Below, piece by piece: positions 15,536 to 54,257 of a stretch of DNA of 64,000 nt; position 1 is the stretch's first letter; each line of letters opens with the position of its first letter. Source of the DNA: Paramacrobiotus metropolitanus. Lineage: Eukaryota > Tardigrada > Eutardigrada > Parachela > Macrobiotidae. The notes beneath the pieces were generated by a model that was given only the letters and a program-made list of their open reading frames with translations, was not told the DNA's origin and did not search any database. A program made the translations under genes and the position numbers. The DNA is taken from NCBI RefSeq assembly GCF_019649055.1, contig NW_026570482.1, positions 1 to 64,000 of the forward strand, in the 5' to 3' direction.

Positions 15536-15549
15536 TGGTAGCAGAGCCG
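15536..15549 (+). promoter_or_regulatory. Primer-binding site, initiator-Met tRNA type
   Basis: TGGTAGCAGAGCCG starts immediately after the LTR. TGGTAGCAGAG is complementary to the conserved animal initiator tRNA-Met 3' end (CTCTGCTACCA), the primer for minus-strand cDNA. Eleven bases match; the rest cannot be tested without the host tRNA. Confidence 0.75.
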
Positions 15550-16922
15550 ACAGCGGTTCTCTGATTTGATTTGATTTGATTTGTGTCAGGCAAATTTGGC
15601 CTGTTATCAGTGTGACCAGTAAGGCACAGGTCTGTGGAACAGCAAAGGGCACACCACAAGCGGTGAATCGTCCCACCGATCGGGATTTCCAGCTTTGGTT
15701 TTCGGTACAGTGTCTTCAGCGAAGACCTGTGCTGTTTCCTCAGCTGTGCAAGAGTTCAAGAGTTCAGTCAGCAGTGTTCCTCGGTGTAGAGTCTTCAGCG
15801 AAGACCTACACTGGTGTCACTGTTACTCGGCAAGGATTCAGCGAATCCTAAGCCGTGGGTCACAAGCAACGAAGCGCCGAAAGGGGCGCACGGGAAAAGA
15901 CAGATCAGACTCCTCCAAGCTGGCAGTAGAGCACTACTACTGTTGCTACGGCAGTCAGCCGGCACAGTAGCAGACAAAAAGCGTGCGGCACAACCGCTAC
16001 GGAAAAGCGGCAACGCGGGAGCGGAGTGTGGAGAAAAACTGGATCATTTGGAACATTTCCCCGCGGAAAAGGACGGTCAACAGGTAGAAAACCGTTATTA
16101 ATTACGGGATTGGCTAATTGGTAAAATTGGCAATTTCTATTGGTCCGTACTGAGCTGAGCGTAGACGTAGGCGGAGTTTTGCACACGGTGCGCAAGTCTG
16201 GCCGTTGACCGTGACGTCAGGCAGATATAAATTTTAAATGGACTAACGTGATTGGTCAGTTATCCGAACTGTGATTGGTTGAAATTTGAACTGAATATTT
16301 TGAGCTAGTGAACCAATCAGAACGAAGTAAACAACGTGAACGGGGATTTTCCGCTGAACTTGAGTTGTAATGAGAATTTCGATTTGAGACTAGATATTTG
16401 AAAAGGAAAGTGACCTTTTGAGTTAAGACAAAGGAAATGTGACCTTTGATTGAATTGAGCTGGAAAGTGACCTTTTGAGTTCAGACGAGTGGGAAAGTGA
16501 CCTTTGACTTCAGAAAGTGACCTTTACTAAAAAGCTGGAACTGATTAATTTGACCTTAAAAGTGACCTCTAAGACCTGAAATTGACCAAAAGTGACCTAT
16601 TAACGAAGTTGAAATCGAGTCGATTAGTAGTTCAGCGATATCAGCAGCTGTAGAATTTCATTCGTAAACGTGTTCTGAACTGTAAAAACGCTCTCGAAGT
16701 TTTGTCCGAAAAGTGACCTTTAGAGCAAATCTCTCGAAGTTTTTATCGAAAAAGTGACCTTCGAAGCGGAACTTAGTTGAATTTTTCAATCGAAAAGTGA
16801 CCTTTAATAAGGACTTAGAAAATTTCGTAAGAACGAAAGTGACCTTTAAGACAATTGAACAAACCATACAATAACGTGTGTGTGAGAACAATTGGCAGGA
16901 GCGTCCAAGTTATCCAATCAAC
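15550..16922 (+). other. Retrotransposon leader with hairpins and a TGACCT cluster
   Basis: Non-coding leader. It contains four TTTGA units in tandem (15562-15583) and two identical 15-base inverted repeats GTCTTCAGCGAAGAC (15712-15726 and 15791-15805). Between 16408 and 16845 there are about twelve TGACCT sites, mostly as AAAGTGACCTTT. Short open frames here overlap in many frames and have no signature. The hairpins could serve packaging or dimerisation of the RNA; that is inference. Confidence 0.6.
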
Positions 16923-17648
16923 ATGGATAAAGACAAGGAAGAACCAACGTCTATCGGCAGTCAGGGAAGCACAAGCTCCCGAAGTTCACAGCAAGGCGCA
17001 CTAAATCCGTACAAAAAAGATTTGCACACGTACTCACGTCCAGTTGGACATGAGCGGAACACTCGAGCGCCTAAGGCATTTGAGAAGAAGGATTCGCGAG
17101 GCTCTGATAGCACCTCTCAGAAGGCGCTCGAGGCGGCCGCCAACCAGGAAAGTTCCAGCGACGTCCAGAAGCACACTCCCGCGTCTGCGGCGGGAGGAAA
17201 ACCGATGAACCAGACAAAGGTCACTGGGGAGGAAAAATCCACAGAGAAATGAGCGGAAGCAGTCGGAGCATCACAGTTGGATGCTACCACTGTCAAAATC
17301 GACGAGCAGGATAATAATATGAACCTGGCTCAAACGGAAGATAGAAACACAAAGGTCACCGAAGAGGAACTAGCTGAACTGGGATTGAATGACCTCTCAC
17401 TGAATGACAAAGCTGCAGACGATGACCTTTGGGCAACTCCAATGGTCTCAGATGAATCAAATGAATCGTATTTCACGGATGATGAGACGACGATGCACAC
17501 GTCTTTCCAAACGGCAATAAGAGAAGCCGACCGTGCTGAAGGGATTACACCTTTTAAGGACATACCTGAGCATCTTATTGAACGGACAAAGAATAGAGAG
17601 GTCATCAACGTACGACCGCCGTCACCGAACAGCCCACGTCAACTTTGA
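16923..17648 (+). CDS. Element ORF 1: acidic, Ser-rich protein (one in-frame TGA)
   Basis: Starts at the first ATG after the leader and reads MDKDKEEPTSIGSQGSTSS. It is Ser/Gln-rich first, then strongly acidic with DDDLWATPMVSDESNESY. An in-frame TGA at 17250-17252 separates the parts; the same frame reopens at once. It stops at 17648, where the coiled-coil frame overlaps it by four bases, one base back. Possible readings are readthrough plus -1 frameshift, or decay by mutation. It may be the N-terminal part of a long Gag-like precursor. No known domain. Confidence 0.5.
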
Positions 17649-18903
17649 GGAGACGTGTCAGTGAAATGGAAAATGAACTTGAAGTTAACGAACGCCAGGC
17701 GGACAAGAGGAAACAGGAATATCGAGAAAGATTGACGGCACTTGACACCCGCCTCTTCGATCTGGAGCAGCAACAAGGTGACCTTCAAAGCGCTGCAGAC
17801 GGTTGGAAAATCAAATATGAAAGACCGAAGGAATTGGCAGATGAATATCTGAAAATGGTAGATGACAGAGAAATGGAAGGTCAACTTGCAGTCAGTGACC
17901 TTAATGAGAGTATGTCGGAAGAATCAGCGGAAAGGTCACGACACTTGGCAGAATTGAAGGACGAATGCGACTTATTGAAACTAAAGTTCACCGAAGCTGA
18001 GGCTAAGAGTATATTTTTTGAATAATGCTCGCATGCAATTTCGAAAAATTGCACGCGTATATTTTTTGAAAGAATGCTCGCATACATTTTTGAAAAAATA
18101 ACGAATACGTGACCAAACTCGCCGAAGCCACTCAGCGATTGTTGACGAACACTACCGAAGTATTCAAGCTCAGGAATGACCTGAAGCTGCGAGACGAGAA
18201 TATCGGAACCCTCCAGAAGGAATCACAAGATCATCAAAGAAGAGCTGACGAAGCGGTCCGGACAGCTAAGGACCGGCGAGATCTTACAGTCACCGAAGGC
18301 GTACGGTTGAGCAACGAAATAAGACAAGTGATGGAAGAGAATAAGGTGTTGAAAGAAGGTATCGGAAAGGTCACCGAGGAAAACAAAGAGCTGAAAGAAA
18401 CCGCCAAGACCGTGGCCGAACAGGGCTTACACTGGGAGCGAGAAGCACTCCGGTTTGACGTACTGGCCACGGCGCTCGAACGGAAAGATAAAGAGTGGCA
18501 ACAAACGGTTCATCAGAAGACGCAGAAGATCATCAAACTCAACACAGAGTTGATCGATATGACGCAAACAGTAATGACAGGAGAAGATGAGGTGACCCAG
18601 ACAAAGCAGCAGCTGAAAGCAGCAGCTGAAGAGTACACAAAGTTAGAAGGAGAAGTGACCCAGTTGGTAGAACACATCAAAAAGGTGGAGAACAATACAG
18701 AGAAGACGATTCAGGAGAAGACCTTCCAACTCCATCAGCATATGCTAAAGGTCAACCAAGAGAACCAGAACTTGAAAACCGAGAAGGAGGAACTACAGTT
18801 TAAAATCAGACGCATCGAAGATGAGAATAAGGCGCTCAATATGCCCAACAAGCATAAGGATGAACAGCTCCTGCAATACGGGGTCAAGACGGAAACGGTG
18901 TAA
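17645..18903 (+). CDS. Element coiled-coil protein, interrupted by a short duplicated insertion
   Basis: Two open stretches (17645-18025, ATG at 17669; 18109-18903) encode an almost uninterrupted heptad-rich coiled coil, about 390 residues, with blocks such as VMEENKVLKEGIGKVTEENK. Between them lies a roughly 50-bp AT-rich unit present twice (18009-18105, each starting GTATATTTTTTGAA), which brings a TAA and shifts the frame. A long coiled coil upstream of Gag is unusual for Ty3-type elements; it could serve multimerisation of the particle or cytoskeletal binding. The function is unknown. The second part ends at a clean TAA before the Gag ATG at 18967. Confidence 0.55.
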
Positions 18904-18966
18904 TCGCTCCCGCCCAGTTACAGTAAGGCACATGAAACGGGCACGGGCAAAAGCTTCCACTTTGAA

Positions 18967-20778
18967 ATGCCATTACGAACCGGCATGGGTAACGGGAGCA
19001 TCAAGACAGAACGAAACGGTGAAAAGGTCAACGACAAAAGAGTGCAACCATCGGAAAGTCACCCGCATATGAGTCGAGGTGACCCTTCCCAGTTCCCTCC
19101 ACACATCAAAACAAATGTCTTTATCGATGAAGGACGACGAGACAGACCGTCGAGTCGCCAAGAGCGCCCAACTAGATCCCGCTATGCGAAGGCGAGACGA
19201 AATCCAGATGATGACAAAGGTAGCGAAGAAGAAGAAGACCCGAGAGGAGGTTTTGCATTAGCAAAAGCATTCAACTCCATGGCACGGAAAACACCACTCG
19301 TGACCTTTGACGGCAGCCGTGATACCGTGAATGGTTGGACAAGACTGGTAAAAGACACTCAAAGAACCTACCAGCTCACCGACGATCAAATCATGATCGA
19401 GATAGCCAGTGCGGTGAAAGGTCCTGCTAAAACATGGTTCGAAAGCGAAAAAGATATTGCATCAGAGGATGGAATTGAATATTCGGTAACAGAATGGATG
19501 GACAAATTTAAAGACGAATACGGTGATCGGAACGAAGAAGTCTTAGGCTTACGCGAGGCCTATGCAAGGAAATTTGAACTAGGGAAAGAATCGCTTGACC
19601 AATATTATCAAGCGATAATGCGGTTCAAAGCAATGAGGATCATAACCGAAAAACAAGCAGTGGGTTTCTTAATCCAAGGATGTAGAGCGGATAATGAACT
19701 CTACAAAGCCCTGCGTACACAAAAGTGCAGAACGCCGACCGACGTAAAGGACTTTTTCAGACATTGGGCAACGGGAGAGGAAAAGTACAAGGCGCCAAAA
19801 GGTCAACGTAATCAGGAATACGTGACCATCCGCCAAGGTCAAGTCGAAAGTATACCGCAACAGAGAATGGCAGCCGCACCAGTTCAACAGCCGGTTGAAT
19901 ACCGCGTGGAGACTCCGGTCAGAGAGGTCACAGAAAAGGTGACCTTTATCGACAGCCAAACGGGGCAACCGATAACGTACGCAATGGTAGCGGCGATACA
20001 GGCGGCAGCTCAAGTGAGACCAGCACCACAGAATGTGGTTCCTCCGAATGTAGGAGTACCACAACAGGGAATGGCGAATGGAAACTTGGGTGGAAATGGA
20101 TATGGAAATGGAAATTGGAATGGAGGTCAAGGGAACTTCCAGAATCAAGGTCAAGGTCAGGGCAACTTCCAGCCAAACAGAGGAAACCAGAACTTCCAGC
20201 AGAACCAAGGGTCACGAAAGGAGTTTAAGTTCCAGCTGATTGACGGATGGGTAGCGAACGGAATGCAGATGTGTCAGCACTGCATGTATGGAAATCACCA
20301 AACACAAGGATGCAAGTTTGCCAACACACCACCGGATCAGAACCCAAACCTGTTTGCCTTCAGGGAATGGCAACGACTGCGCGGATTAGGTGGTTGGCGC
20401 CTAGCGGTGACAAACGGATACGACCTCATCGCCCAATGGTATCAGCACAAAGCCAACTTCCAGAAACAACAAGGGAACGGGAACAACGGAAATGGCGGAG
20501 GCCAAAATGGCGGCTACGGTCGTGGTGGCTACGGCCGCGGCGGCTTCAGAGGAAGGGGTAGAGGATTTGGCCGCGGAAATTACGGCAATAACCAAGGTGG
20601 CGGAAACGGAGGTGGCCAAGGAAACTACCAACAGGGTGGTGGCCAATACAATAATGGCGGCGGACAGAATCCTAACCCGGCAAATGATATCGGACAACAA
20701 CAAGGAAATGTGCAAGGAAATGTGCAAGGCGCGCAACAAGGTGGGACGCCGGTTCAGGGAAACGAACAAGATCAGTAG
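18967..20778 (+). CDS. Gag: capsid, CCHC zinc knuckle and RGG box
   Basis: 603 aa from ATG 18967. Residues about 110-290 match the retrotransposon Gag capsid fold: TPLVTFDGSRDTVNGWTRLV, then WFESEK, EWMDKFKDEYGDRNE, LDQYYQAIMRF and the helical tail before KAPKGQ. Then comes a Gly/Asn/Gln-rich linker and a canonical knuckle CQHCMYGNHQTQGC (C-x2-C-x4-H-x4-C) for RNA binding. The C-terminus is an RGG-type tract (GRGGYGRGGFRGRGRGFGRG) and a Gln/Gly tail. Expected role: assembly of the particle and packaging of element RNA. The frame is intact. AGGTCA sites occur both in the capsid and in the linker-coding DNA. Confidence 0.85.
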   Translation: MPLRTGMGNGSIKTERNGEKVNDKRVQPSESHPHMSRGDPSQFPPHIKTNVFIDEGRRDRPSSRQERPTRSRYAKARRNPDDDKGSEEEEDPRGGFALAKAFNSMARKTPLVTFDGSRDTVNGWTRLVKDTQRTYQLTDDQIMIEIASAVKGPAKTWFESEKDIASEDGIEYSVTEWMDKFKDEYGDRNEEVLGLREAYARKFELGKESLDQYYQAIMRFKAMRIITEKQAVGFLIQGCRADNELYKALRTQKCRTPTDVKDFFRHWATGEEKYKAPKGQRNQEYVTIRQGQVESIPQQRMAAAPVQQPVEYRVETPVREVTEKVTFIDSQTGQPITYAMVAAIQAAAQVRPAPQNVVPPNVGVPQQGMANGNLGGNGYGNGNWNGGQGNFQNQGQGQGNFQPNRGNQNFQQNQGSRKEFKFQLIDGWVANGMQMCQHCMYGNHQTQGCKFANTPPDQNPNLFAFREWQRLRGLGGWRLAVTNGYDLIAQWYQHKANFQKQQGNGNNGNGGGQNGGYGRGGYGRGGFRGRGRGFGRGNYGNNQGGGNGGGQGNYQQGGGQYNNGGGQNPNPANDIGQQQGNVQGNVQGAQQGGTPVQGNEQDQ

Positions 20779-20864
20779 GCACCGGTGAGCCTACTGATCG
20801 ACCCGACCCTAAACCACCGGGTAAAAAGGGAACGGAAAGGTCACCACTGCAGAACGGTACTGCA

Positions 20865-21353
20865 GTGAGAGTGACAAAGGAAACGGCTATAGGGATGCCG
20901 CCACAGCAAACTGAAACGGCTATATGGATGTCGTCATTGCAAAAGAAAATTGAAACGGCTATAAGGATGCCGTCACAGCAGCAAAGCGAACTGGTTATCG
21001 GGAAACCAGTACAAGCGGATAAAAGGTCACCGCAGAATGGTACTGCGAGTGGAAATTGTCGTGACGGTAGCGCGACACTGCAAAAAGTGCAGCCAAACGA
21101 AAGGTCACCGTACTGCAGCGAAGAGGTGTTAGCGCAACGACGCGCACAACGAAATGCGAAGATTCAACAAGCGCTGCTGAATCAAAAGAAATCGCAGAAC
21201 GATACTGCACACGAAGAAAACGAACAACATGCGAAATTCCGAAAATATTTGGCAGAAAACGATAAAGCGAATGAGCCACGTTGTGACTGTTACGGAGAGA
21301 TAAATGGATGGAGCAGAATATCACTGGTAAAGATGGCAGGTCACCTTGAGTAG
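20865..21353 (+). CDS. Element linker ORF with ETAI repeats
   Basis: 162 codons without a clear ATG at the start (first codon GTG/ATG region near 20865). Begins with three imperfect repeats of ETAI-x-MP, then charged Gln-rich sequence with NERSP. No known domain. Lies between Gag and the protease-bearing ORF in yet another frame, so it was probably expressed by frameshifting or is a decayed part of the polyprotein. Confidence 0.4.
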   Translation: MRVTKETAIGMPPQQTETAIWMSSLQKKIETAIRMPSQQQSELVIGKPVQADKRSPQNGTASGNCRDGSATLQKVQPNERSPYCSEEVLAQRRAQRNAKIQQALLNQKKSQNDTAHEENEQHAKFRKYLAENDKANEPRCDCYGEINGWSRISLVKMAGHLE

Positions 21354-21364
21354 GAAAAGTCCAA

Positions 21365-24118
21365 GTGAAAGGTCAAGGAGCAAGTGCGAACGCTAGAGGT
21401 CACGGTGAAAGCGCCGTGTTAAAAGGTCAAGAAACCGACTTGACACTGCGAACAGCGCAGCAAAAGAATAGCGAACAGGCACAACAGAACTCCGATGACT
21501 CACTTGTTGATGCAATAACGCTGCAACGGAAGGAAATCTGGCGAAAAGTGGCCTACAGACCAAACGGGAATCACGGGATGTGGATACCCGTAACCCCGAA
21601 AGCGAAACAGAAAGCGGGAATGTCACAAGAGGATTACTGGGACATGCAAGAATTGCGAACACAACATGAGAGGAAAAGATTAGAAGAGTTGGTTACCGGG
21701 AAACCAACGAAAGGGTCACCGAATCCTGTCCCAGTATTCAACGCAACTGAATACAAGAATGCACAAGCTGAACTGAATAACCCGCGAAATGCACCGCCGG
21801 AAGATAAACCGCAGAATTATGGAGAAAAAGTTACCATAACGAAGTTACCGAGTGGCGGGTTTGTCATAAACCGAAACGAAAAGTCATCGGGCATAGAAAA
21901 GGCCATGCTGAGAGCTGCTGATGAAAGGTCACAGGACTTGGCGCAAAATGAACAAAAAGGACGGTCAAATGAGATGGCGCAAATGCAACAGAGTAACGCA
22001 GTTGAAAGGTCACGGGACTTATCGCAAGCACTGCAAAAGGATGCCAACGACAAGTCACCAGCCCGAACTGACGGGATGTCTTTGCAAACTGATCCAACGA
22101 AAACGAACAGCGAAGTGTCAGCGAAGGTGATTGAATGGATGACCCAAAAAGGATACAATATGGTTACATATGAAAGGTCACCAGATGAGATGAGAGATAG
22201 CAAAGAAGAGGAACTGAAGAGAGCTGACCAGATAACAAATAAAGTTATTGAAAAGTTACAAGATAAACGTAAAGACGATCGGAAAGAGGAAGTGTTGTGT
22301 CGGACGATAACTGAGGTGACAAAAGGTCACACGACCGGCACAAAAGCAAATGAGCAAGTGCAGAATGTTGAGAAGGTCACCAGTGGTAAAATGGCTGCAG
22401 AGAAGCAAGCAGACAGGAAAAAACCGCGGAAATTTTACGACGTCCGAACTGACGTGCCACACAGGATCGATAAGCTGAGCGAGATACTGAAAGGTCACAG
22501 CACTCCAGCGAAAGGGCAAGTGCTTCCCGATATGAATCCGGGACCAGTATCGTTAATTCCTGTGAAGTGCAAGATTCACACATTAAAGATTCAAAACGGA
22601 AAATTGCCCAAGAGAATTGAAGCGTACACTCACGAAGTGAAAGCGGGAGACATAAAGGTCAACGCAATGCTGGACACCGGCGCTGAGACGTCGCTGATCA
22701 GCAAACCGTTTTGCGAGAGGAATGGACTTCACATGCTCCCATTACCACCAGATAGATTGGTGAAGATAAATGGAATTAGCGGAACGTCAGGATTCCTGGT
22801 GACACATTACTGTGTAGCACCAGTGACCTTAAGGAAAAAGACTAGTGAACATTCTTTCTACGTCCGACCGAAGTGTGATGACGTACAGGTGTTACTGGGA
22901 TTTGACTTCTTAGAGAAGAAGTTCGTACTGATGGATAACGAAGGCGAAGAAGAGAAAGAAGATGACCCGAAACCAGTTGCCAAAGTACAAGTCGGAATTG
23001 TCACCGAACTTGCAAAACAGACGGGAAGTGCTCAAACGGATAATAAAACGCTGATCCCAGTACCAGAGGCACAGGGAAAAGAAAAGAAAAAGATGGCGCA
23101 AAAAGAATCGTCGACATTCGAGCAGTTGAAAGCGATTCAGCAGGAAATTGAGAACACATTAAATCGGACACTGCTGACACAAAAGGGAAGAGAAAAGGTC
23201 ATCCCAGTACCAGAGGCACCGGGAGTAACGAAAGTGCAGCAGAACGCGACAAAAGCGCAGCAGGAAGAAATTATCTCAGTACCAGAGGCACTGGAAACGA
23301 AAAATGAAAATGGAAAGGTCGAAAAAGTTATCCCAGTACCAGAGGCACTGGGAAAGAAAGATGAAAGGTCACCGGCGACACGAGCTGAGAACTTGGCGCC
23401 AGAGCCGGATCCGAAAAGCGTCAGCAAGACCTTTTTCGAACCACAATCTGCAACCCAAAATGAAAGGTCACCAGCCAAAGTTAAAGAAGTAACGGGGCGT
23501 GATTATCAAAAAGACGTGGAAAAAACCCTTGTAATTGAAGAAAGAGATTCGCAAAGAGTACCAGAGCGTACATCGAACCTTTTCAAACCACGATCTGCTA
23601 CCCAAAATGAAAGGTCATCGGATAAAACTAAAGAAGAAGTAACAGACCGTGACTCTCGAAAGGAACCCCTTTCCGAACCACACTCTCCTATTAATGACGA
23701 AAGGTCACCAACGTTTGAAGAGATAGCTGCCACACAGGAAGAAGCGACAGCTGCAGCGAAACAATCGCTCATGCCTGGCTTGGAGTGGGCAGAGCCTATC
23801 CCAGTACCAGAGGCACTGGGAATAAAGACGGCTAAAGTGTGGAAGGGTAAAAAGAGTGAAAGGTTACGGGTATTGAAACGAATAGCCGAAGAGGAACAGA
23901 TGTTTACGAGTGAAATCCGCAACAAGGCGCTTGAGCAGTTAAAAGGTCACAGAACAGAGAAAGAACCAGAGGTCATCGAAATATCCTCTGAAGAAAAGAG
24001 CGCGACTCCAATCGAACGAACAAGATGCTACAGCACAGGAAGATGTCACTCCGCAAACGAGTCACAAGACAGTAACTCCAGAAGAACGAGCCGGGAGTTG
24101 TCACCACGGTTACTATGA
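21365..24118 (+). CDS. Pol N-terminal part with retropepsin-type protease
   Basis: 917 codons, intact. Mostly a low-complexity charged spacer with repeated ERS(P), KGH and DLS(Q). Residues about 425-525 form an aspartic protease: KVNAMLDTGAETSLISKPF (D-T-G-A active site), a glycine-rich flap region, and VLLGFDFLEKK (the LG-D-hh motif). This would cut the polyprotein. After the protease the spacer holds five copies of a PVPEA(L/P/Q) unit, four of them as IPVPEA. Three copies of a second block, E/K-P-x-S-A/P-T/I-x-(N/D)ERS, also occur. The spacer is far longer than in compact Ty3 elements and gives this element much of its size. The many ERS and KGH words come from the DNA motif AAAGGTCA read in two frames. 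Confidence 0.8.
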   Translation: MKGQGASANARGHGESAVLKGQETDLTLRTAQQKNSEQAQQNSDDSLVDAITLQRKEIWRKVAYRPNGNHGMWIPVTPKAKQKAGMSQEDYWDMQELRTQHERKRLEELVTGKPTKGSPNPVPVFNATEYKNAQAELNNPRNAPPEDKPQNYGEKVTITKLPSGGFVINRNEKSSGIEKAMLRAADERSQDLAQNEQKGRSNEMAQMQQSNAVERSRDLSQALQKDANDKSPARTDGMSLQTDPTKTNSEVSAKVIEWMTQKGYNMVTYERSPDEMRDSKEEELKRADQITNKVIEKLQDKRKDDRKEEVLCRTITEVTKGHTTGTKANEQVQNVEKVTSGKMAAEKQADRKKPRKFYDVRTDVPHRIDKLSEILKGHSTPAKGQVLPDMNPGPVSLIPVKCKIHTLKIQNGKLPKRIEAYTHEVKAGDIKVNAMLDTGAETSLISKPFCERNGLHMLPLPPDRLVKINGISGTSGFLVTHYCVAPVTLRKKTSEHSFYVRPKCDDVQVLLGFDFLEKKFVLMDNEGEEEKEDDPKPVAKVQVGIVTELAKQTGSAQTDNKTLIPVPEAQGKEKKKMAQKESSTFEQLKAIQQEIENTLNRTLLTQKGREKVIPVPEAPGVTKVQQNATKAQQEEIISVPEALETKNENGKVEKVIPVPEALGKKDERSPATRAENLAPEPDPKSVSKTFFEPQSATQNERSPAKVKEVTGRDYQKDVEKTLVIEERDSQRVPERTSNLFKPRSATQNERSSDKTKEEVTDRDSRKEPLSEPHSPINDERSPTFEEIAATQEEATAAAKQSLMPGLEWAEPIPVPEALGIKTAKVWKGKKSERLRVLKRIAEEEQMFTSEIRNKALEQLKGHRTEKEPEVIEISSEEKSATPIERTRCYSTGRCHSANESQDSNSRRTSRELSPRLL

Positions 24119-24220
24119 GGATCCGTGCAGAGTACAGCCTCAATGGGAATGTGCTGAATGTCGGGAGAATGCCTCTCAAGATGACCTTTCGGAATGGCCA
24201 AAATGTAACGCCGCAATAGC

Positions 24221-24973: not shown

Positions 24974-24996
24974 GTGACCTTTCGGAACAAGAAGAC

Positions 24997-28106: not shown

Positions 28107-28130
28107 ACGATAAATTTTTCAGGACACTTT

Positions 28131-28915: not shown

Positions 28916-28920
28916 GTAAA

Positions 28921-31505: not shown

Positions 31506-31513
31506 CTATGTTC

Positions 31514-31807: not shown

Positions 31808-31815
31808 CTATGTTC

Positions 31816-43806: not shown

Positions 43807-44151
43807 TTAAAGTCCTTCGATGATCTGTTGAAAGCACAAGAAAAGGCGGGTACGCAAATAGACAGTGCAGATTGTCGATGCGGGCATACGCACAAGACGT
43901 ACCTATGGACACCGTATTTTTCTGCATGCTTGCGCAAGAGCGATATACAAGTGGCAGTAATTATTTTATCTCATATTTAGTACTGCCATATCCTTTACTG
44001 TAAAATACTATTGATGTTACTGTGTTATTGATTTGCGTAATGCTTTCATTGGTTAAACAAACAAAGAAAAGAACTCGAAGACATCTGCAACGTTCCAAAC
44101 AACAAACCGCAAATTTTTCAAATTTTTACGCTTTCAATCGTATTAGCTGTC

Positions 44152-45261: not shown

Positions 45262-45266
45262 CTGTC

Positions 45267-46540
45267 CAGTTAACTGCATACAGGATTGCCTGTTCTGTAA
45301 AATAACTTTCCTTCATGATTTTATGCCCAAACGCGAACCGGGAGGTCAGTTGTCGCTTAATTTTTGACATAAAGTGCATCTTACTTTTTGTATATTATTG
45401 GCCATTTTCGGGATTTGTCTTCTTTGATTTTTTTCGCTTAACCTGACTTTAAACACTTCCCTAAACCAGAGGTAGCTGGGATTATTTTTGAGCAACAACT
45501 TCCTGAAGTAAACGATCAAAACACTGGGCCTGATCAATTCTAGCTAATCTTCTCAAGAAAGATATCGCGAAATAAAATGTGAAAGCAGAATGCGTCACCG
45601 ATTGATGACACACAGCAAAAAATACAAATGCGTTGGACCAGTAATAAGCAGTGGATCACCACAGAAAACGCAAGCACTGACTGTTAAATGAATCGTGCTG
45701 CATACACACAAACGAATTGTCAGCAGGGCCGCAGGCGCGTTTTAATCCGCATGCTTGAGGTGTCATTAATTAACGCAATAATTTACAACTTAACTGAAGA
45801 AAAGAATGTATCCATTTAGTCAATGTAACTTAGCTAATTAATACGCGTTATTAATTAATGTAATTAGACTTAATTACAGTAACGCAACCTGCACAATATT
45901 ACAAATGTCCATTGATAACTGTAATCACTAATAATAATTACTTTAATTACTAATCGTAATTACTAAATTAACAATCACTAATAGTCTGGTAACAACAACT
46001 AGTAACAACTTTTCAATCTAAGTGAGGCTAAATTATTAATGCGGATTAATACCTGACCACATTTTATTAACAAATTAGCAATTAGAATGCTTTAATATTT
46101 ACTATATGTTACGGGTTCCGGTGACCACCGTGTAAAGCTCGGTTGGCTATGCACAACAACGGAGGTGAATGTGTATGTGAAATTGAAAACGCAGTTTCGA
46201 AGCTGCGTTTTGTAATTCATCTGTGGATCACGTAGCGGACCAATGAGCGCAGCCGTTAGCTTTCGGCTTGAGAATGTTGTGGTGACTAACTCGCGTTATC
46301 TTTCACGGGCGCGCTGAGCGTTGTGCCCTACTTCAGCAAAAACATCTGCCAAATGTTTAGCCAGGTCTGATCAGCACTACTGACGTTAATCAGACGGGCG
46401 GAATAAAAACAGCATGATGATGCTTGACGAATGCAGCAAACCCACTTAGACATACCGAGATAGTGTCGAAAAAACAGCGGCACTGGCATTGACGGTCAAA
46501 ATAACCAAAGGACTCTTGCAGATGAAGTCGGCATCCGTAT
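45267..46540. other. Inside insert, no supported gene
   Basis: 45750-46020 is dominated by TAATTAC-like words. Nothing coding is recognised up to the right repeat array. Confidence 0.4.
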
Positions 46541-47336
46541 GCATACTGTGGGATACGGAGCGGGTACAGCGGGGTCTCTAAAGTGAACGATCGGGATACA
46601 GGAAAGTCGCTTACGGAATACAGGTGGCATACGTACGCATACTGTGGGATACGGAACGGGTACAGAAGGGTCTCTAAAGTGAACGGTGCGGATACAGAAA
46701 AGTCGGTTGCGGGATACAGTTGGCATACGTACGCATACTGTGGAATACGGAGTGGGTGCAGCGGGGACCTTCAGAGCAACGGTCGGAATACAGAAAGGTC
46801 GCTTGCGGAATACAGTTGGCATACGTACGCATACTGTGGGATACGGAACGGGTGCAGCGGGGGCCTAAAGTTAACGTAAGGGATACAGAAAGGTCGCTTA
46901 CGGGATACAGGTGGAAGACGTACGCATACTGTGGGATACGGAGCGGGCACAGCGGGGTCCTTCAGAGCAACGGTCGGGATACAGAAAGATCGCTTGCGGG
47001 ATACAGTTGGCATACGTACGCATACTGTGGGATACGGAGCGGGTACAGCGGGGTCTCTAAAGTGAACGATCGGGATACAGAAAAGTCGTTTACGGAATAC
47101 AGGTGGCATACGTACGCATACTGTGGGATACGGAACGGGTACAGCGGGGTCTCTAAAGCGAACGGTGCGGATACAGAAAGGTCGCTTGTGGGATACAGTT
47201 GGCATACGTACGCATACTGTGGGATACGGAGCGGGTACAGCGGGGACCTAAAGTGAACGGAAGGGATACAGAAAGGTCGCTTACGGGATACAGGTGGCAT
47301 ACGTACGCATACTGTGGGATACTATGGATACATCCG
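46541..47336. repeat. Right 96-bp tandem array, inverted (about 8 units)
   Basis: The word GCATACTGTGG(G/A)ATAC recurs at 46541, 46637, 46733, 46829, 46924, 47020, 47116, 47212 and 47307, 95-96 bp apart. It is the complement of the left array. Unit differences between arrays show they have not been fully homogenised. Confidence 0.9.
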
Positions 47337-47512
47337 TTAGAACGTGTCCTTAAAAATTTACCGTGTACTAACCGTGCCATAGGTGCATCCAGAAGGTCAA
47401 GGCCAAGTCGAAAGACAAATGCAGATGATAGCGAGGGCACAGGCACCGGGAAAAAGAAGGAGAGAGAAAGAAAAAGGATAAACCGTCTTCTCCCGATGTC
47501 GAAATTCCGAAT

Positions 47513-47923
47513 GTGTCTGTCGCCGAAGTTGAAGAAAGGTCATCGACACCTACAACTTCAAAGAAATTTGTTATCGAATCGGCTACATCGAAGTTAAAGG
47601 TCACCGAGCCTGAATCGCTAACACCCAAGGGAAAGGTCATAGCTGTGAAACAGATTGTTCCAGTCGTCATCTCGGCACCCACTACGAAAGAAGGTAGGGA
47701 GAAAGGAAAGCGTGAGAAAGCAAAACGAGAGACGTCTCGCGAGTCAGAAGCATCGGAAGTGAGCTTACCAAGTACTTCGACGGTTAGTACAAGGTCACAC
47801 ACGGACCCGAAAACGACTCGATCAAGGACCACAGAATCAAGAAGCCTAGCGGAGGCTCTGGATAAAGGAAAAAAGCGAAGAGCGAACCCGTCAAGTCGAA
47901 AAAGAAGGGGAAGGAGGCCATGA
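47513..47923 (+). CDS. Element accessory ORF A: basic Ser/Thr-rich protein
   Basis: First clear open frame after the insert; no ATG at its start, so probably a continuation of a longer frame. Lys/Arg/Ser-rich (REKGKREKAKRETSRESEAS) and ending in a basic KKRRANPSSRKRRGRRP tail like a nuclear localisation signal. AGGTCA occurs four times. Its TGA overlaps the ATG of the next ORF (ATGA), suggesting coupled translation or a shared polyprotein. Confidence 0.45.
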   Translation: MSVAEVEERSSTPTTSKKFVIESATSKLKVTEPESLTPKGKVIAVKQIVPVVISAPTTKEGREKGKREKAKRETSRESEASEVSLPSTSTVSTRSHTDPKTTRSRTTESRSLAEALDKGKKRRANPSSRKRRGRRP

Positions 47924-48459
47924 AAATCGATGCACTGGCAATGGCCACCTACACCGAACCGGACGGCGATAGCGAACTTGATTACTCGGGAGATGAAGTG
48001 GAATTCGATGACCCAGATAACGACAACATGACCACGATAGATGAAATCGTTGATGCGTTCGATGGAGCCGAGAAAAACTTTACCCGGATAAGAACGACAC
48101 CGGTGACATCGAAATTTAGAACGGGTCTTAAGAAATATTTGAAAGAAAAACGCCGCAGTTTCACCAAACAGAAATTTGACGTAGTATTGAAGTATGCGCG
48201 GAATGCGGGAAAACTAATTCAGAAACATCCGAACTTCGCATATAAGGCCAAGCTTTTCAGACCGACGAGTTCAGACAAGGCGTTGACAACTCCAAACGAA
48301 GACATTCCAATGCGAGTGGAAAGGGCAATTGCGGGAATGACAAGCCCGTTGGGATCAACGAGTCACCGGATCAGCCAATATATCAACGCAGTCTGGAACG
48401 ACGGAAGAGGAATGATAAGGAACTTGACGCGGCCACCGAGCGCGTATTGCCGCGGATGA
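47920..48459 (+). CDS. Element accessory ORF B: acidic then helical protein
   Basis: 179 aa from ATG 47920. Acidic N-terminus (EPDGDSELDYSGDEVEFDD) followed by a basic helical region (TGLKKYLKEKRRSFTKQKFD) and a C-terminus with SPLGSTSHRISQYINAVWND. No family known. Overlaps the ORFs on both sides by a few bases in other frames. Confidence 0.5.
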   Translation: MKIDALAMATYTEPDGDSELDYSGDEVEFDDPDNDNMTTIDEIVDAFDGAEKNFTRIRTTPVTSKFRTGLKKYLKEKRRSFTKQKFDVVLKYARNAGKLIQKHPNFAYKAKLFRPTSSDKALTTPNEDIPMRVERAIAGMTSPLGSTSHRISQYINAVWNDGRGMIRNLTRPPSAYCRG

Positions 48460-49724
48460 TTAGACAGAGCATCCTTTCGACAACGAATGCACATAAAGGA
48501 CAGCCGATTAGATATACGCGAGTAGGTCTGATACCGCCGGAAAGACAAAGCCACTGCCATATGTCCGACAGCCAGGACATGGAAAAGGTCACAGTTCCAT
48601 TGAGTGGAGACCCGACAACACCCATACTGAACCGGATCGCACAGCTAACGGCTGAAGAAGAAGCCGCTCGGGTTAAATCACACGCCCCGAGAGTGTCGAA
48701 AAGGAAAGGACCAATGGATGAGGAATCGGAAGAAAGTGAAGATGACACTACGACACAAACGCCTCTCGACCCAGCAACAGGAAAGGAGGGTCAGTCGAAA
48801 GGTCAAGAGACATCTGGAATTGTGGCAGAAGTTCAAACGAAAGGTCATGAGACTCCGGCAAAAGGGGAGAAAGAAAAGGTCATGCTCCCAATGGAGAAAG
48901 CGGCAGCGGAAGCAGAAGCAGCTGCAGCCTCCGCGCGTCAGGTGTTTCAGAGGTCATTGTTCGTATTATTGAAGGACGCCTTCGAGAAAGAACGATCAAA
49001 GTCGGCAGGTGAAGTGGGAGGTCACGAGACCTTGCCACTGAAGGAGAAAGCTGATGAACCGAAATCGGCTCAGTCATCATCAGGCTCGCTGGCAAAGTTA
49101 AAGATTGTCGAGACAGAAGAAGCGGACCCAACGGACTCGGCACTATCCCCCCAGAAAACGGAAACCAGCGGTACGAAGACAAAGGAGGCGACAGATTATA
49201 CGTTAGGAGCACCGTTAGATGTGAATAACCGGACATGGAACGAAGTCCAGGCTGCGATTCAGAGTACTAGAGAACACGAAATGCTCGGGACGGAACTAAA
49301 AAGACAAGTCGCCGAAAACTCGAAAGGAAGATCGTCACTCAGCATGAGCGAGCGAGTCTTGAAACGAGCGTATAAGGAAGGAAAGTTGGGATGTAAATAC
49401 AACAAGGACAACAAAGTCATTTACTACCTTCCGAAACAGGGCAAGGATCGCACACCCAGACTTAAAATGGAGCTGGAAGCCTGGAAGATAGCCATCACAG
49501 ATGTGGCTTTGGACGCCATTGGCGGCACCAATGGAGCGTCATGGGGCGACCTTTCGAACTTCATGGCTGTCCACTATGAACTGGGAGAATTGAATATTGA
49601 GAACGACAAAGAATGGGTCAAGAATGCCGTCGAAGCCTTGATCGCAGACGAAGCGCTTCATATTAACAAGGATGGCCGGGTTGACTTTAAGCCGTATAAC
49701 CCGCCGGCGAAGGAGTCTGAGTGA
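48456..49724 (+). CDS. Element accessory ORF C: possible winged-helix DNA-binding protein
   Basis: 422 aa from ATG 48456. The N-terminal two thirds is charged and low in complexity with KGH/KVT/ERS words. The C-terminal 75 residues read like a winged helix: VALDAIGGTNGASWGDLSNF, then WVKNAVEALIADEALHINKD-GRVDFKPY. The pattern (helix, G-A-S, helix, helix, G-x-(h) strand) recalls linker-histone H15 domains. A second module, SERVLKRAYKEGKLGCKYNK, precedes it. Function inferred at most as chromatin or DNA binding; profile search needed. Confidence 0.5.
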   Translation: MIRQSILSTTNAHKGQPIRYTRVGLIPPERQSHCHMSDSQDMEKVTVPLSGDPTTPILNRIAQLTAEEEAARVKSHAPRVSKRKGPMDEESEESEDDTTTQTPLDPATGKEGQSKGQETSGIVAEVQTKGHETPAKGEKEKVMLPMEKAAAEAEAAAASARQVFQRSLFVLLKDAFEKERSKSAGEVGGHETLPLKEKADEPKSAQSSSGSLAKLKIVETEEADPTDSALSPQKTETSGTKTKEATDYTLGAPLDVNNRTWNEVQAAIQSTREHEMLGTELKRQVAENSKGRSSLSMSERVLKRAYKEGKLGCKYNKDNKVIYYLPKQGKDRTPRLKMELEAWKIAITDVALDAIGGTNGASWGDLSNFMAVHYELGELNIENDKEWVKNAVEALIADEALHINKDGRVDFKPYNPPAKESE

Positions 49725-50086
49725 ATGGGACGAGTGTAATATGCAGCGAGTAATGAACCCTGCATATTACAGAAAAAGCATAAAATAATTAAAAACGAAA
49801 GAGAAAAGCTGTACGGAAAATTGAAAGTGAAAAAGTCACCTCGAGAAGTAGCGTCGATAAGACTAACAGAAAAGGTCACAGTAGTCAGAAAGCGCTAATA
49901 ACGTGAAAAAGGTCACCACGTTACAGTGATAGAAAGGGTAGCACGAGCTAGGAAAGTCTCAGCTCAGTAACGGAATAGGCGTAAAAATGATAGAAAAGCC
50001 TTGATAATGGATAGGAATGGAAAAGATTAACGCGGAAAGGTTACTATGATGGATTGTTGTCTGATTTCAGATTTAAAACGGAGAAA

Positions 50087-50983
50087 ATGGCACAAAAAGG
50101 TCAAGCCACTCCTAAAAGCTCAGGAACGGCATCAGATATAGGCAGATCTACGGGCTATAATCCAAGGTGTCCGGACTGTAAGCGGAATAACATCAGGAAA
50201 GACGGGAAATATCCATGTTGGTCATGTGCGACAAAACTTGAGAATCCCATGTGGATTGTGACGAGAGAAGCCATTCGGGGCAACATGGAAATCTTTCGGA
50301 TACTGATCACCAAGGCACACTACCAAAACGTCGGACTACCAGACCGAATGTTGGTCGAAGATCGATACCGACAGGCCATGAAAGATGAAGAGCCTGGCTG
50401 GGACATAACAATGGAACCACCGCACGATCCCTTAACAGATGGTTATCGCCAGCAGTTCAATAGGGACCAAGAGCGGATGCAGCGGCAACGACTTGAAGAC
50501 GAACTGCGCGCCAAAATTGAAGCGGATAATAGACGGGCAAGCGAACAAGCTGCACGTGAGGGGCTGCCTAACTCATCGAACCCAGCCGTACCGACAGCAA
50601 GTATTAACGAAGCAGAGGCGCAGCTTACACGTCAGTCGCTGATTATTCAGATTGACACGTTGACGAATGACCCGGCCGCAATGCAACAGGACTTATTCGA
50701 TGCGCTGTTGCGGGAAAAATTGAGACTGCAGAAGGGATTCGCCCCAGCGCCGTACATTAAGAAGGAGATTGAAAAACGTATGGAGGAGCTACGTAAAGCC
50801 CGTCAGAACGAGAGTAATGTCTTACAAGCGCTCAGAGGATTTAAACGGGACGAAGGCTTCATACGACCCCGGTCTCCTCCGCAAAGAGAAAGGTCACGCG
50901 GACATTCACGCGAAACCGAACGAACTTCTGAACGACGAAATGAAAGGTCACGCGAATACTCTCGTGAAAGGACACGTGATTAG
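50087..50983 (+). CDS. Element accessory ORF D: zinc-ribbon N-terminus, RS-like C-terminus
   Basis: 298 aa from ATG 50087; a splice-acceptor-like CTGATTTCAG lies just upstream (50061-50070), so it could be made from a spliced RNA. Residues about 28-47 have CPDCKRNNIRKDGKYPCWSC, a four-Cys zinc-binding motif. The middle is helical and Gln/Arg-rich. The last 30 residues alternate Arg, Ser and Glu (RERSRGHSRETERTSERRNE) like an RS domain; this stretch is encoded by repeated AAAGGTCACGCG-type DNA. No family recognised. Confidence 0.5.
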   Translation: MAQKGQATPKSSGTASDIGRSTGYNPRCPDCKRNNIRKDGKYPCWSCATKLENPMWIVTREAIRGNMEIFRILITKAHYQNVGLPDRMLVEDRYRQAMKDEEPGWDITMEPPHDPLTDGYRQQFNRDQERMQRQRLEDELRAKIEADNRRASEQAAREGLPNSSNPAVPTASINEAEAQLTRQSLIIQIDTLTNDPAAMQQDLFDALLREKLRLQKGFAPAPYIKKEIEKRMEELRKARQNESNVLQALRGFKRDEGFIRPRSPPQRERSRGHSRETERTSERRNERSREYSRERTRD

Positions 50984-51223
50984 CGTAGTGAAAGGTCACG
51001 TGAACGCTCTCACGATCGGGATTACCGCGGCGGAAGAGGATGGGTACGCCATAGCAATGAAGTTACGGAAACCAGTATCCAAAGAAAGATAGATACTGCA
51101 AAGATTTCGGCAGCGACTAGAGGACGCGAAGAACAACGGCGTGCGGAAACTTACCGTACAGAGCCTGAAAAGAGAGGTCATCAGGTGCCGTTGGGAGTTG
51201 CATTTTGTAACCGTAATGTCAGA

Positions 51224-52813
51224 ATGTCAACACCCGAAAGGTCATGGGACAAGAGACGCGAACGTACGCGGAAACGAACGCCAGACCCACAGGATAAGAG
51301 ATGGCAGGAGAGAGCCAAGTATTATGCGGGTTTTGAATCTGGCGCGAGCAAAAGGTCATCGAGCGCAGAACGCGAAGATACACCCCCGAAGCATCAGCGA
51401 CTGGAGTCGACAGTCCACGTAGTGGATCCAATTGTAAATGCCGTGCAAGAAGACGACACGATGGAAGGGGTCAGCTCAGTCGTAGAAGCATCCCAAGAAA
51501 ACGTGATTCACCGAAGGAACGTGGTTCTTGATAGTGACCCTCGACCGTCTACATCGGCGAGCAATGAACCGCCGCAGTCGGAATCGATAGAACGAAGCGG
51601 ACAAGAAGGTCAACGCGAACCGGATGCACGTCGCGAAAGCAATCGACGAACGACCTCCAGATTTAACAACCGACACCCTGACCTTATTGATATGGATTAC
51701 AACATGAATGACATTGATGAACAAACGCTGGAAATTTGTCGATACTTTGGAATCGAATCTGATTCGGTCGAAGCTAACAAGATTGGCACAATTCTGAATC
51801 AGCTGCGCAAATTCCTACTTGATTCGGGCTATGCTAAAGAGATTAAACAGGGAGTAGAAGAAGGAAATTTCCATCGGTTATACATTCCCTGTGACTCTGC
51901 AAGGGATTGTTATCTCCCTATCCGACGGAATGGATTACACAGTTTGGTGGATTTGAGTCTATTGGATGTGCCACTGGATACGACTGACCCAGTTGGGATG
52001 ACACAATTTTATTACACAGACTATCCTGAACGACAAGAATATGTGGCTCAGTTCGTTTTACGACACGTGAATCCAGCTTTCAAGTTGCTTGCAGCAAGGG
52101 CATCGATAGGACTACAAGTGGATCCTAAAGATTATGCCGCAAAAAGGATGGGGCAGAAGGTCTTTGCTGCACGGCTGGCACATTACAAGACACAGAATCA
52201 GTTGGTATCCAATACCATGAAGGATGATATCCCACCGTTCTTCCCACCTTATGTGGCGAAACTGGGAGAGCCTATGGAACATATAGGAATTGCTCACACG
52301 GCTCGCAAGGCGCTGAAGAAGTGTAAGACACGAACGGAAAAGGGCAATCTTACACAACGACATGCCTCCCAGGTTGAGGAGAGGATTAATCGGATTAAAG
52401 ACACCATGGGGAGCGACTATGTTGAACCAGTGGACGGAGTTGACGTCTACATAACGGAATTCCTGGTGAATAAAGGCGACCGACGCCCGGAACGTGCTCC
52501 TAACCAGATAGGACGACGCGGCCTACGAAACCAGCAGCTCCGAGATAATCCCGCCGATGTACAACGTCGATTAGCAGATGACCCTAATAACCGAAAACTG
52601 CGGTTGGAAGAAAATGACGCACGCCATCGAGTAGAGGCAGTCAAGCGCAGTCGCCAAGGGAAAGGTCGCGGTCAGCGAGAAGTTGACCCGGAAAAGGTCA
52701 TGGAAGTCGATTCCACGGAACCAATTGACCGAACCTCCGACCAAAACCAACCGAAAAGCACTAAGAAGCGCCCGCCGAGAGACGGCAAGGGCGACTCAAA
52801 TGAAATGGAATAG
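51224..52813 (+). CDS. Element accessory ORF E: large protein of unknown function
   Basis: 529 aa from ATG 51224. The Arg-rich start (RSWDKRRERTRKRTPDPQDK) is followed by a Ser/Glu linker. A folded-looking core of about 280 residues contains DEQTLEICRYFGIESDSVEA, RNGLHSLVDLSLLDVPLDTT and YVAQFVLRHVNPAFKLLAAR. The C-terminus is basic and repetitive. No transmembrane segment, so it is not an envelope protein. AGGTCA density falls within the folded core, where I find almost none between about 51690 and 52690. It could be a structural or replication accessory protein; that is speculation. Confidence 0.5.
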   Translation: MSTPERSWDKRRERTRKRTPDPQDKRWQERAKYYAGFESGASKRSSSAEREDTPPKHQRLESTVHVVDPIVNAVQEDDTMEGVSSVVEASQENVIHRRNVVLDSDPRPSTSASNEPPQSESIERSGQEGQREPDARRESNRRTTSRFNNRHPDLIDMDYNMNDIDEQTLEICRYFGIESDSVEANKIGTILNQLRKFLLDSGYAKEIKQGVEEGNFHRLYIPCDSARDCYLPIRRNGLHSLVDLSLLDVPLDTTDPVGMTQFYYTDYPERQEYVAQFVLRHVNPAFKLLAARASIGLQVDPKDYAAKRMGQKVFAARLAHYKTQNQLVSNTMKDDIPPFFPPYVAKLGEPMEHIGIAHTARKALKKCKTRTEKGNLTQRHASQVEERINRIKDTMGSDYVEPVDGVDVYITEFLVNKGDRRPERAPNQIGRRGLRNQQLRDNPADVQRRLADDPNNRKLRLEENDARHRVEAVKRSRQGKGRGQREVDPEKVMEVDSTEPIDRTSDQNQPKSTKKRPPRDGKGDSNEME

Positions 52814-54257
52814 TGCTGATCGTTAGGATCACACTATTAAAAGAGCGTCTACGGCATATGTCGGTACGTCACAAAAATGAAAAATGGTGTTGTATATAAG
52901 GGCGACGTGACATATTAACATAAACTGTATTTGTGTATTTGTTGTTTTCAGCGTTTATAGCACAGAACCGCAATGGATAAAGAAATCATGTGGAGCATCT
53001 ATTGGGGTTGAAATTGATTCGGTCTACAAAGCCGGCCCCAAGGAGTAGTTACGGCAGTTAGCCGGCTCTCCTCCTTAAGCGATTCAGTGTTATAAATTGG
53101 CAAGAGAAACTACGGTAATCAAGCCGGATCTCTTGAATACGAAAGGGGGCCACAAGCGGCGAAAAAGAGAAAGACAATAGGTGGAATGTTAATGGGGTAA
53201 ACTTAATGCGGCAGTCAGCCGGCCTCATTAGAGTTGCTACGGTAAAATGCGCCGGCCATCTCTCCAAGCGATTCAGTGTCAAAACTCAACGAGAGAAACT
53301 ACGGTAGTCAAGCCGGATCTCTCGTACCGAAGGTGGGCCACAAGCGGCGAACAAGAGTAAAAGATTGAATGTGGAAAAGTAATGGGGTTAATTTAATGCG
53401 GTAGTTAGCCGGCCCCATCAGAGATGTTACGGTAAACTTTGCCGGCACTCTGGCCGCTCGAGGCATATTGAAGTTGGATGTGCGACGGAAAGGTCAAACT
53501 GAAAGTTTTACCAGGGAGGCAAGCGAAGAAGTGCTTGAAAGTCGTCAAAAATCGGCTAAGTTCCTCCATGACCTTTACTGGAAGTTTGAAAAGAAGTCGG
53601 ATGACCTTTGGAATCACTATTGCCCAACAGAGTCACCGTACCGGAATTTATGTCGCATGACCTTTTGGGACCATTAACCCAAACAAGTCGCACATCTCAA
53701 CGGATCATCTCAACAAAGGATGACCTTTACCAGAGAGGAAGCGAACTACGCTTGTCTACACGACGTCCCTCCATGACCTTTATGGATCTCATTTTCAAGT
53801 CGTACAAATTGATACGCACCTTATTCCAAAGATTGAAGCAGTATTCCTAAGTCGTACTTGATACGCACCTGATTCTCAAAGCGGATTGTGATGATGTCGC
53901 ACTACGGATGCGCGGAATTGCTCAACAGAGCGGAATGGGCCAAAAGTGCGGAAAACGGTGGACAGGACCTGTGACCTTTACGAGTCAAAAATGGAGGATC
54001 CTAGTCTACATTTGATTAAAAATTTCTGTTGATCTGTTAACTGTTGATCTGTTTTATGTTGATTTGATAGTATTTTTATAAATGGATCTCTTTATTCACA
54101 CCGTGTTAAATGGAATTGTGCTTTATGGAATTGATGTGATAAATGGAATAAGAGAATTTGATGTTTTTGAGCACGCACAGACACCGGCGACCGTCGTCTT
54201 TTCGTGGATTCGGGAGTGTGTTGGGCCTCAACGGAGCTCGGCATCCCCCCAGAGGCA
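52814..54257 (+). other. 3' untranslated region of the LTR element with repeated modules
   Basis: Non-coding. 53041-53440 contains about two copies of a 182-bp unit and seven occurrences of a CGG(T/C)A...GCCGG word. From 53480 to 53980 TGACCTTT sites recur (seven hexamers). A start-like TATAAATGG at 54076 lies near the 3' LTR. I do not see a clear polypurine tract; AGAGGCA is directly before the LTR. Confidence 0.5.
53041..53440 (+). repeat. Tandem 182-bp unit with CGGTA..GCCGG words
   Basis: AAGCGATTCAGTGT recurs at about 53077 and 53267, and AGAGAAACTACGGTA recurs with it. Words such as ACGGCAGTTAGCCGG, ACGGTAATCAAGCCGG, GCGGCAGTCAGCCGG and GCGGTAGTTAGCCGG appear seven times, spaced 30-100 bp. 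Confidence 0.7.

Follow-up and report, generated by a model that had tools for sequence, protein, structure and literature searches.

Binding sites for transcription factors in the long terminal repeats (LTRs) and leaders of mobile elements are already well known, and short words that mark whole cellular genomes for uptake, repair and segregation are familiar from bacteria as the DNA uptake sequences, Chi and KOPS. Among retrotransposons, the gypsy element of Drosophila is described as carrying in its 5' untranslated region (5' UTR) a Su(Hw) insulator of twelve repeats, which blocks enhancers and prevents repression by heterochromatin (PMC2493044). Insect endogenous retroviruses are reported to possess host-adapted cis-regulation in the LTR and 5' UTR (PMC12992720), and the Periodic An/Tn Clusters (PATCs) of C. 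elegans are described as dispersed DNA signals by which a transcription unit is shielded from silencing in the germline (PMC7725773). Here we describe a giant Ty3/gypsy-type retrotransposon of the tardigrade Paramacrobiotus metropolitanus, which occupies positions 15195-54598 of the first 64,000 nucleotides of contig NW_026570482.1 (the whole of this stretch being the window hereafter), and in which a single octamer, AAAGGTCA, containing the nuclear-receptor half-site AGGTCA, is strongly selected as a nucleotide word.

Like gypsy, this element is of the Ty3/gypsy type and has an array of about a dozen sites between its LTR and first gene, which is here, too, probably read by a host protein. 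It differs in that the word is the octamer of a nuclear receptor, which does not stop at the leader but recurs in gag, pol and the 3' genes and as far as the 3' untranslated part. It further shows constraint at synonymous sites, a comparison for which gypsy's own genes were not searched for Su(Hw) sites. With the insect endogenous retroviruses it would share a cis-regulatory sequence, borne by the element itself, that decides the place of expression; in those elements such regulation is described for the LTR and 5' UTR, whereas in the tardigrade element it would extend to coding DNA. The PATCs are a proposed analogue, but consist of non-coding periodic A/T runs, in contrast to a sharp octamer without regular spacing. 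The bacterial words are likewise single short words that spread across coding and non-coding DNA in any frame and are selected at the level of DNA; however, they mark whole cellular genomes, and here a receptor-type word marks an animal retrotransposon. A search of an open literature library, by titles and the beginnings of abstracts, returned, among the papers listed, no carpet of one factor-type site selected inside the genes of an element, and no paper with both P. metropolitanus and "retrotransposon". A study of tardigrade transposable elements covers two other species, and Paramacrobiotus is not named in its accessible portion (PMC11071193).

With a nested insert of 19.3 kb discounted, the element measures approximately 20.1 kb and contains 106 instances of AGGTCA/TGACCT, against 12.8 expected. 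The stretches 1-16399 and 53981-64000 hold one AGGTCA with three TGACCT, and none with four, respectively. An initial annotation of this DNA, made by eye, had estimated about 76 hexamers at 16400-28100 and about 30 at 47400-53980, which agrees with exact counts of 76 (51+25) and 29 (22+7). It was also correct in regarding the insert as poor in the hexamer, though not in its figure of about nine (8+4=12 at 28101-47399). Its statement that the sites are mostly extended to AAAGGTCAC was too strong, as this form, in either orientation, accounts for 34 of the 76 and 8 of the 29. The common core is instead AAAGGTCA, to which 74 of the 106 sites conform against 1.6 expected, and which is the top-ranked octamer of the element under an order-2 Markov null (z 57.6). 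These 74 perfect octamers are spread over the leader, gag, pol, the extra 3' genes and the 3' untranslated region. The hexamer is preceded by A at position -1 in 92 of the 106 sites and at -2 in 83 (C in 5), positions -3 to -6 being without strong preference, and the base that follows it is C in 54, T in 28, A in 20 and G in 4. Outside the element the window has five octamers, against 1.3 expected, a rank of about 400 among 20,916.

The coding capacity of the element does not account for this excess. When synonymous codons were shuffled 2000 times within 11 open stretches (13.6 kb), plus-strand octamers averaged 4.2 and never exceeded 12, against 43 observed; the octamer is top-ranked in these stretches as well, and codon frequencies outside the word predict 0.46 occurrences. 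Thus, the enrichment stays when measured against the codon-shuffled null that the initial annotation had proposed, and its observation that the word is used in several frames also holds, with 11, 18 and 14 plus sites in the three forward frames.

We then consider the genomic copies, for which the 169.8-Mb assembly of 533 contigs was searched. This recovered at least 40 rows for the 5' stretch, at least 45 for the 3' stretch and, for the last protein, at least 81 rows spread over no fewer than 72 loci, with 72 of 554 candidates scored. All these are lower bounds. Close same-strand pairs of AAAGGTCAY number 2907 genome-wide against 12 for the reversed pattern; several such clusters on contig C1 lie outside the copies listed, in lists that are incomplete. 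Twenty-six copy loci were read in three regions and each aligned with the window (region A, L039-L048; B, L002-L008; C, L050-L058), some loci in different regions belonging to one and the same insertion. They contain AAAGGTCA 570 times against 11.5 expected, and the word is thus retained in other members of the family, where the initial annotation had suggested looking for it. The octamer is 56-fold enriched and its 24 single-base variants 0.3- to 5.2-fold, and AAGGTCA is followed by C, T, A and G in 409, 196, 121 and 13 instances, with 7.8, 8.2, 10.6 and 9.1 expected.

Comparison of the aligned rows shows that the word is kept as a unit. Where one row has it, a second row shows it intact at rates of 0.764 (A), 0.839 (B) and 0.846 (C), over ungapped comparisons that are non-independent and omit instances split by alignment gaps; 839 permuted words with its base composition reach 0.279, 0.364 and 0.325. 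Columns in which it is common to at least 60% of rows number 18, 24 and 22 in the three regions, whereas permuted words average 0.07, 0.10 and 0.11 and reach at most 4, 5 and 4; among the 67 octamers present in at least 15 columns it is the most kept. Divergence is 0.04-0.07 across precisely the eight bases of the word, against 0.13-0.24 in the sequence to its left and right. In a count of terminal against internal branches, the internal share of changes is 0.47, 0.03 and 0.19 in word columns (A, B, C) and 0.20-0.32 in other classes, the word columns having been picked as common to at least 60% of rows and hence being biased to few changes.

Further evidence comes from degenerate positions. 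At fourfold sites compared between the window and the copies, with the first two codon bases unchanged, the rate of change inside the word is 0.082, 0.035 and 0.033 in the three regions and outside it 0.371, 0.167 and 0.323. The same holds codon by codon: GGT changes in 1/70 cases within the word against 106/293 outside, TCA in 2/83 against 46/208, ACC in 0/20 against 151/305, and GTC in 8/54 against 85/240. From this constraint at fourfold sites and in identical codons it follows that selection acts on the nucleotide word itself; this selection is independent of frame and, in coding DNA, of orientation. The view of the initial annotation, that the DNA word has bent the protein to it, is upheld by codon shuffle and fourfold constraint alike. 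These features together suggest that the element needs a DNA-binding protein, probably a host one.

As to its identity, AAAGGTCA is the NBRE, the monomer site described for NR4A (NGFI-B/Nurr1) (PMC10419244), and the JASPAR model of NR4A2 is given as AAGGTCAC (PMC9067626), which fits the preference of the element for C at the ninth base. The NBRE and the word of the element agree in all eight bases and in the favoured C, and the sites stand in the monomer arrangement without regular spacing. The two differ in that the element carries its word as a carpet over the whole body of a mobile element and shuns G at the ninth base. The genome of P. metropolitanus encodes an NR4A-type DNA-binding domain (zf-C4, in two exons on contig C45; of this gene only this domain was examined), whose best PDB matches are NR4A1/NGFI-B (6lc1 and 1cit, 2e-39). 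Since the octamer is the NBRE and the host encodes such a domain, we name NR4A as the most likely reader. In its accessible part, a paper about the C4 zinc fingers of tardigrades lacks the term "NR4A" (PMC12941274).

The initial annotation had rightly seen a monomeric nuclear-receptor site, but had named ERR, SF-1/FTZ-F1, ROR and HNF4 as candidates, none of which is well supported. ERR, SF-1 and FTZ-F1 prefer TCAAGGTCA, with C at -2 and T at -3, and the sites of ROR and Rev-erb have an AT-rich 5' arm. As the main word the former is rejected by the A at -2 (83 sites, against 5 with C) and the mixed base at -3, and the latter by the lack of a strong preference at -3 to -6. The usual HNF4 word, CAAAGTCCA, is not enriched in the copies (3 vs 2.3).

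Evidence from the host itself comes from 28 nuclear-receptor gene loci (L009-L037, 88 kb), which have no element match at 1e-6 and from which the overlapping loci L033 and L038 had been removed. In these AAAGGTCA occurs 21 times against 2.5 expected, ranking second among 27,614 octamer pairs. Because of this enrichment the host probably uses the octamer, which may be a host regulatory word. The octamer is also found in more distant gypsy elements, as seen in seven loci picked non-randomly from an RNase H search by score and open frame. It occurs six times in L064 and seven in L065 (0.2 expected; the two are one family, 99.7% identical), four times in L061 (0.1), three in L060 (0.2), twice in L059 (0.2) and once in L063 (0.4), and is lacking in L062. 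Four of the six in L064 and five of the seven in L065 are antisense to the RNase H frame. They sit in a cluster some 3 kb upstream of RNase H (L064, 3765-4149; L065, 176-716), an arrangement like that of the leader in the giant element.

These observations lead us to prefer, tentatively and at a little under an even chance, a model in which a host receptor, probably NR4A, is recruited along the whole body of the element. The word would be read as double-stranded DNA by a nuclear receptor of the host that binds as a monomer, most likely NR4A. The leader array would play the part that the Su(Hw) array plays in Drosophila gypsy, as an enhancer, insulator or anti-silencing device, and the carpet through the genes would extend the effect of the leader over the entire unit of 20-25 kb. 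The integrated element would thereby stay open and transcribed, perhaps upon induction of NR4A. The interpretation offered in the initial annotation is in this respect partly supported: it appears right in kind, as a receptor-type word acting at the level of DNA, and the receptor pointed to is NR4A.

Several observations weigh against recruitment of NR4A. The two 341-bp LTRs of the window have no AGGTCA site, and the spacing of sites is no more regular than random. TCAAGGTCA is above chance in the copies (19 vs 2.2), though it makes up just 19 of 727 AGGTCA sites. The host sample consists of nuclear-receptor gene loci and is non-random, and the window outside the element has the slight excess given above. 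Furthermore, in the host loci AAAGGTCAG (8 vs 0.6) is as enriched as AAAGGTCAC (9 vs 0.5), whereas the element shuns G (4 vs 2.5); because the host accepts G at the ninth base and the element does not, the reader of the element may not be the protein that reads the host word. In codon shuffles of the other gypsy loci, AAGGTCA is the first 7-mer only in L061, is fifth in L059, and falls outside the six best in L060 and L063. The orientation of the untranslated sites is a further difficulty: all 12 in the leader are in minus orientation, which orientation-blind binding does not predict, and so are six of the seven octamer columns of the 3' untranslated part common to the window. Finally, a sister family, represented by L062 (1-4501) and L066 (394-3999) of contig C25 and 67% (RNase H) and 63% (reverse transcriptase) identical in protein to the element in the case of L062, has no AAAGGTCA in 8.5 kb; its own word is AGGTCGG (28 vs 2.7), which is no NR4A site known to us.

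This last observation speaks for an element-encoded reader, whereby each family would carry its own DNA-binding protein along with a carpet of its sites, as a self-mark on cDNA or provirus that might serve in cis-preference, protection, compaction or integration control. Against the codon shuffle, AGGTCGG ranks first among 7-mers in L062 (10 vs 1.3) and second in L066 (18 vs 5.8, behind the overlapping ACCGACC), and AGGTCG is used in several frames and on both strands; however, part of the excess in L066 lies in a repeated peptide. It is also slightly above chance in the window outside the element (5 vs 2.1), while in the host receptor loci it is not enriched (2 vs 4.6). The extra protein at the 3' end of the element, with its CPDC...CxxC zinc-ribbon-like stretch and RS-rich part, is conceivable as such a reader, but the element proteins scanned show no known DNA-binding domain, and the predicted fold of this protein is of too low confidence to be used (mean pLDDT 43.4). 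The enrichment of AAAGGTCA in host receptor loci and in distant gypsy families is likewise unlike a private code. We consider an element-encoded reader to be rather unlikely, though deserving of attention. Somewhat better placed, yet speculative, is a proposal that leaves the nature of the protein aside: that these families bear specific DNA "passwords", AAAGGTCAH here and AGGTCGGW in the sister family, at about one per 200-300 bp in every gene and selected at synonymous sites, by which a sequence-specific protein would coat or mark the entire element.

Another role for a receptor would be in the import of cDNA: a receptor bearing a nuclear localization signal would bind the many sites on the cytoplasmic linear cDNA and carry it into the nucleus, much as plasmids with transcription-factor sites are reported to enter the nucleus by way of bound factors. 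It would explain the presence of the word along the whole body, in genes beyond the promoter region, and its being kept in both orientations. Import has no need of the denser cluster in the leader, where the mean gap between sites is 61 bp as against 257 and 293 bp elsewhere, and we regard it as unlikely to be the main function.

A reading at the level of RNA, as a word for packaging or export recognized by an RNA-binding protein, or through pairing of UGACCUUU in the untranslated ends with AAAGGUCA in the coding part, draws on the orientation of the sites: the untranslated parts are nearly all minus (12 of 12 in the leader, where the initial annotation had noted that the TGACCT strand prevails, and six of seven AGGTCA sites in the 3' untranslated part) and the coding sites mostly plus, making them complementary within one RNA. 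However, the coding ratio of 43 plus to 5 minus is expected from codon usage outside the word, which predicts 7.2:1 and leaves no preference to be explained. A single-stranded word read by a protein would not be kept equally both ways, as is the case in coding DNA (0.845 for minus, 0.814 for plus); the all-minus leader is kept at 0.813 and the 3' untranslated minus sites at 0.710, the single 3' untranslated plus site, though in the octamer columns, being absent from these counts, presumably because it is split by gaps. Pairing of untranslated with coding RNA would allow such equal retention, but transitions compatible with wobble pairing are not in excess (28/44 vs 5/8 positions). Given the equal retention of the two coding orientations, and a strand bias that codon usage accounts for, the word most likely acts as double-stranded DNA, and RNA packaging, one of the proposals of the initial annotation, is improbable, as is an RNA-level signal at large. 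Its account of the strand bias by a stop codon fares better for the coding part, where codon usage governs and the stop in one frame contributes, than for the all-minus leader, to which it does not apply; tandem duplication could account for the one-sidedness of the leader under the double-stranded model.

We also considered conservation without any effect on fitness, through shielding of the sites from mutation by a bound protein or through seeding of gene conversion by the word. Either would likewise yield a sharp footprint, but would leave the roughly 50-fold over-representation of the word unaccounted for. Sites present in a single copy, which are possible gains, number 5, 2 and 2 (A, B, C) against permuted means of 0.71, 0.47 and 0.75; this evidence for gain is weak, with single permuted words reaching 6, 8 and 6. 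We judge this explanation to be very improbable. Lastly, that the carpet arises incidentally from repeats in the proteins, from codon usage or from base composition has next to no likelihood, for although some sites lie in repeated peptides (the ERSRE stretches around 50891-50993), it is contradicted by the use of three forward frames, the untranslated arrays, the excess over the codon shuffle, the 4.5- to 10-fold slower change of fourfold sites inside the word and the lack of a comparable excess in the insert and flanks, so that chance, composition, codon usage and protein repeats are ruled out by the Markov, codon-shuffle, copy-conservation, footprint and fourfold tests.

The architecture of the element is of the Ty3/gypsy type. 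It is flanked on both outer sides by a GTAC target duplication, at the outer side of the 5' LTR (15195-15535, plus strand) and directly after the 3' LTR (54258-54598, plus strand); the two LTRs differ by 7 mismatches in 341 (98% identity). Directly 3' of the first is a putative primer-binding-site-like stretch (15536-15548, plus), a role suggested by its position alone. The leader array (16411-16847, minus) has 12 AGGTCA sites, eight of which show the full TGACCTTT, and is in part a tandem repeat of about 28-30 bp (16402-16514). It is followed by octamer-bearing open stretches (18094-20778, plus) that we take to encode Gag from their place and composition. To the eye their translations show a coiled-coil-looking part followed by an RGG-rich tail with a CxxC zinc-knuckle-like stretch; their sole Pfam match, SWIRM-assoc_3, is at 22.4 bits below the cut-off of 27, and in copies L044, L047 and L048 they form a single frame of 1268-1277 amino acids.

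The order of pol domains along 21350-28113 matches Ty3/gypsy (PF13975, PF00078, PF17917/PF17919, PF17921/PF00665). The octamer-rich open stretch of a retroviral-type aspartyl protease (21350-24118, plus; PF13975 7e-8, PF13650 3e-7) precedes the reverse transcriptase (25356-26084, plus; RVT_1 3e-14), RNase H (26200-27633, plus; RT_RNaseH 8e-33) and an integrase with H2C2 zinc-binding and catalytic core parts (27634-28085, plus; rve 2e-13 and Integrase_H2C2 1e-10 on 27634-28113), which is broken downstream by the insert. Relatives of the reverse transcriptase and RNase H among the 120 matches listed have both of these domains and often rve; they are mostly nameless, one (P0058) being named Ty3-gypsy by its source. 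The named proteins closest to the RNase H stretch are from P. metropolitanus itself (3 of the 120 matches listed, 86-92% identity over 18-42% of the query). The protease stretch also contains a repeated peptide, IPVPEA (IPIPEA in L062 of the sister family), with the conserved DNA TCCCAGTA/AGTACCA. This second conserved word coincides with the peptide, and as it appears to belong to the repeat we read its conservation as one at the protein level; these repeats are possibly cleavage sites of the protease.

Beyond the insert, the 3' coding part (47394-52812, plus) consists of open stretches in several frames at 47432-49724 and then 50015-52813, with octamers mostly on the plus strand. The last frame is open and stop-free over 912-937 amino acids in 23 of 81 rows. 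The extra protein encoded here (50015-52813; L058, 3253-6063), which contains the zinc-ribbon-like stretch mentioned above and an RS/RE-rich part, belongs to no Pfam family, a search of the 3' open stretches having given no match, to an envelope protein or otherwise. The 3' untranslated sites (53489-53979, both strands) comprise one plus site followed by six minus AGGTCA sites. Over the interval that corresponds to 24118-48246, a copy on contig C1 (1786494-1795944) exceeds the window copy, with the insert discounted, by about 4.6 kb. Such a piece may have been lost from the window copy or gained by the C1 copy, and because of this greater length the full-length form may be nearer 25 kb.

The nested insert (28086-47385), which splits the retrotransposon and stands outside the carpet, is DNA-transposon-like: its inverted ends consist of tandem repeats of approximately 96 bp, and its target duplication is the 8-bp CATCCAGA; the single inner open stretch tested had no Pfam match. 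Palindromic repeats of about 700 bp, which match themselves as reverse complements, are found in the insert (43133-43810 and 37393-38102) and in the left flank of the element (10936-11611), those at 43133 and 10936 being related at 74-76%.

The carpet constitutes a natural experiment in which a mobile element trades the freedom of its codons for a function at the level of DNA, repeated at no fewer than 72 last-gene loci in one genome. With it one can put to the test what use a retroelement has for a protein over its whole length, be it for transcription of a 20-kb unit, for protection from silencing or for import of cDNA, and whether the words of sister families diverge to suit different readers. 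If the proposal of family-specific "passwords" is true, a DNA-binding word that constrains an entire coding capacity would be a new kind of organization in eukaryotic genomes, comparable only to the uptake or Chi words of bacteria.

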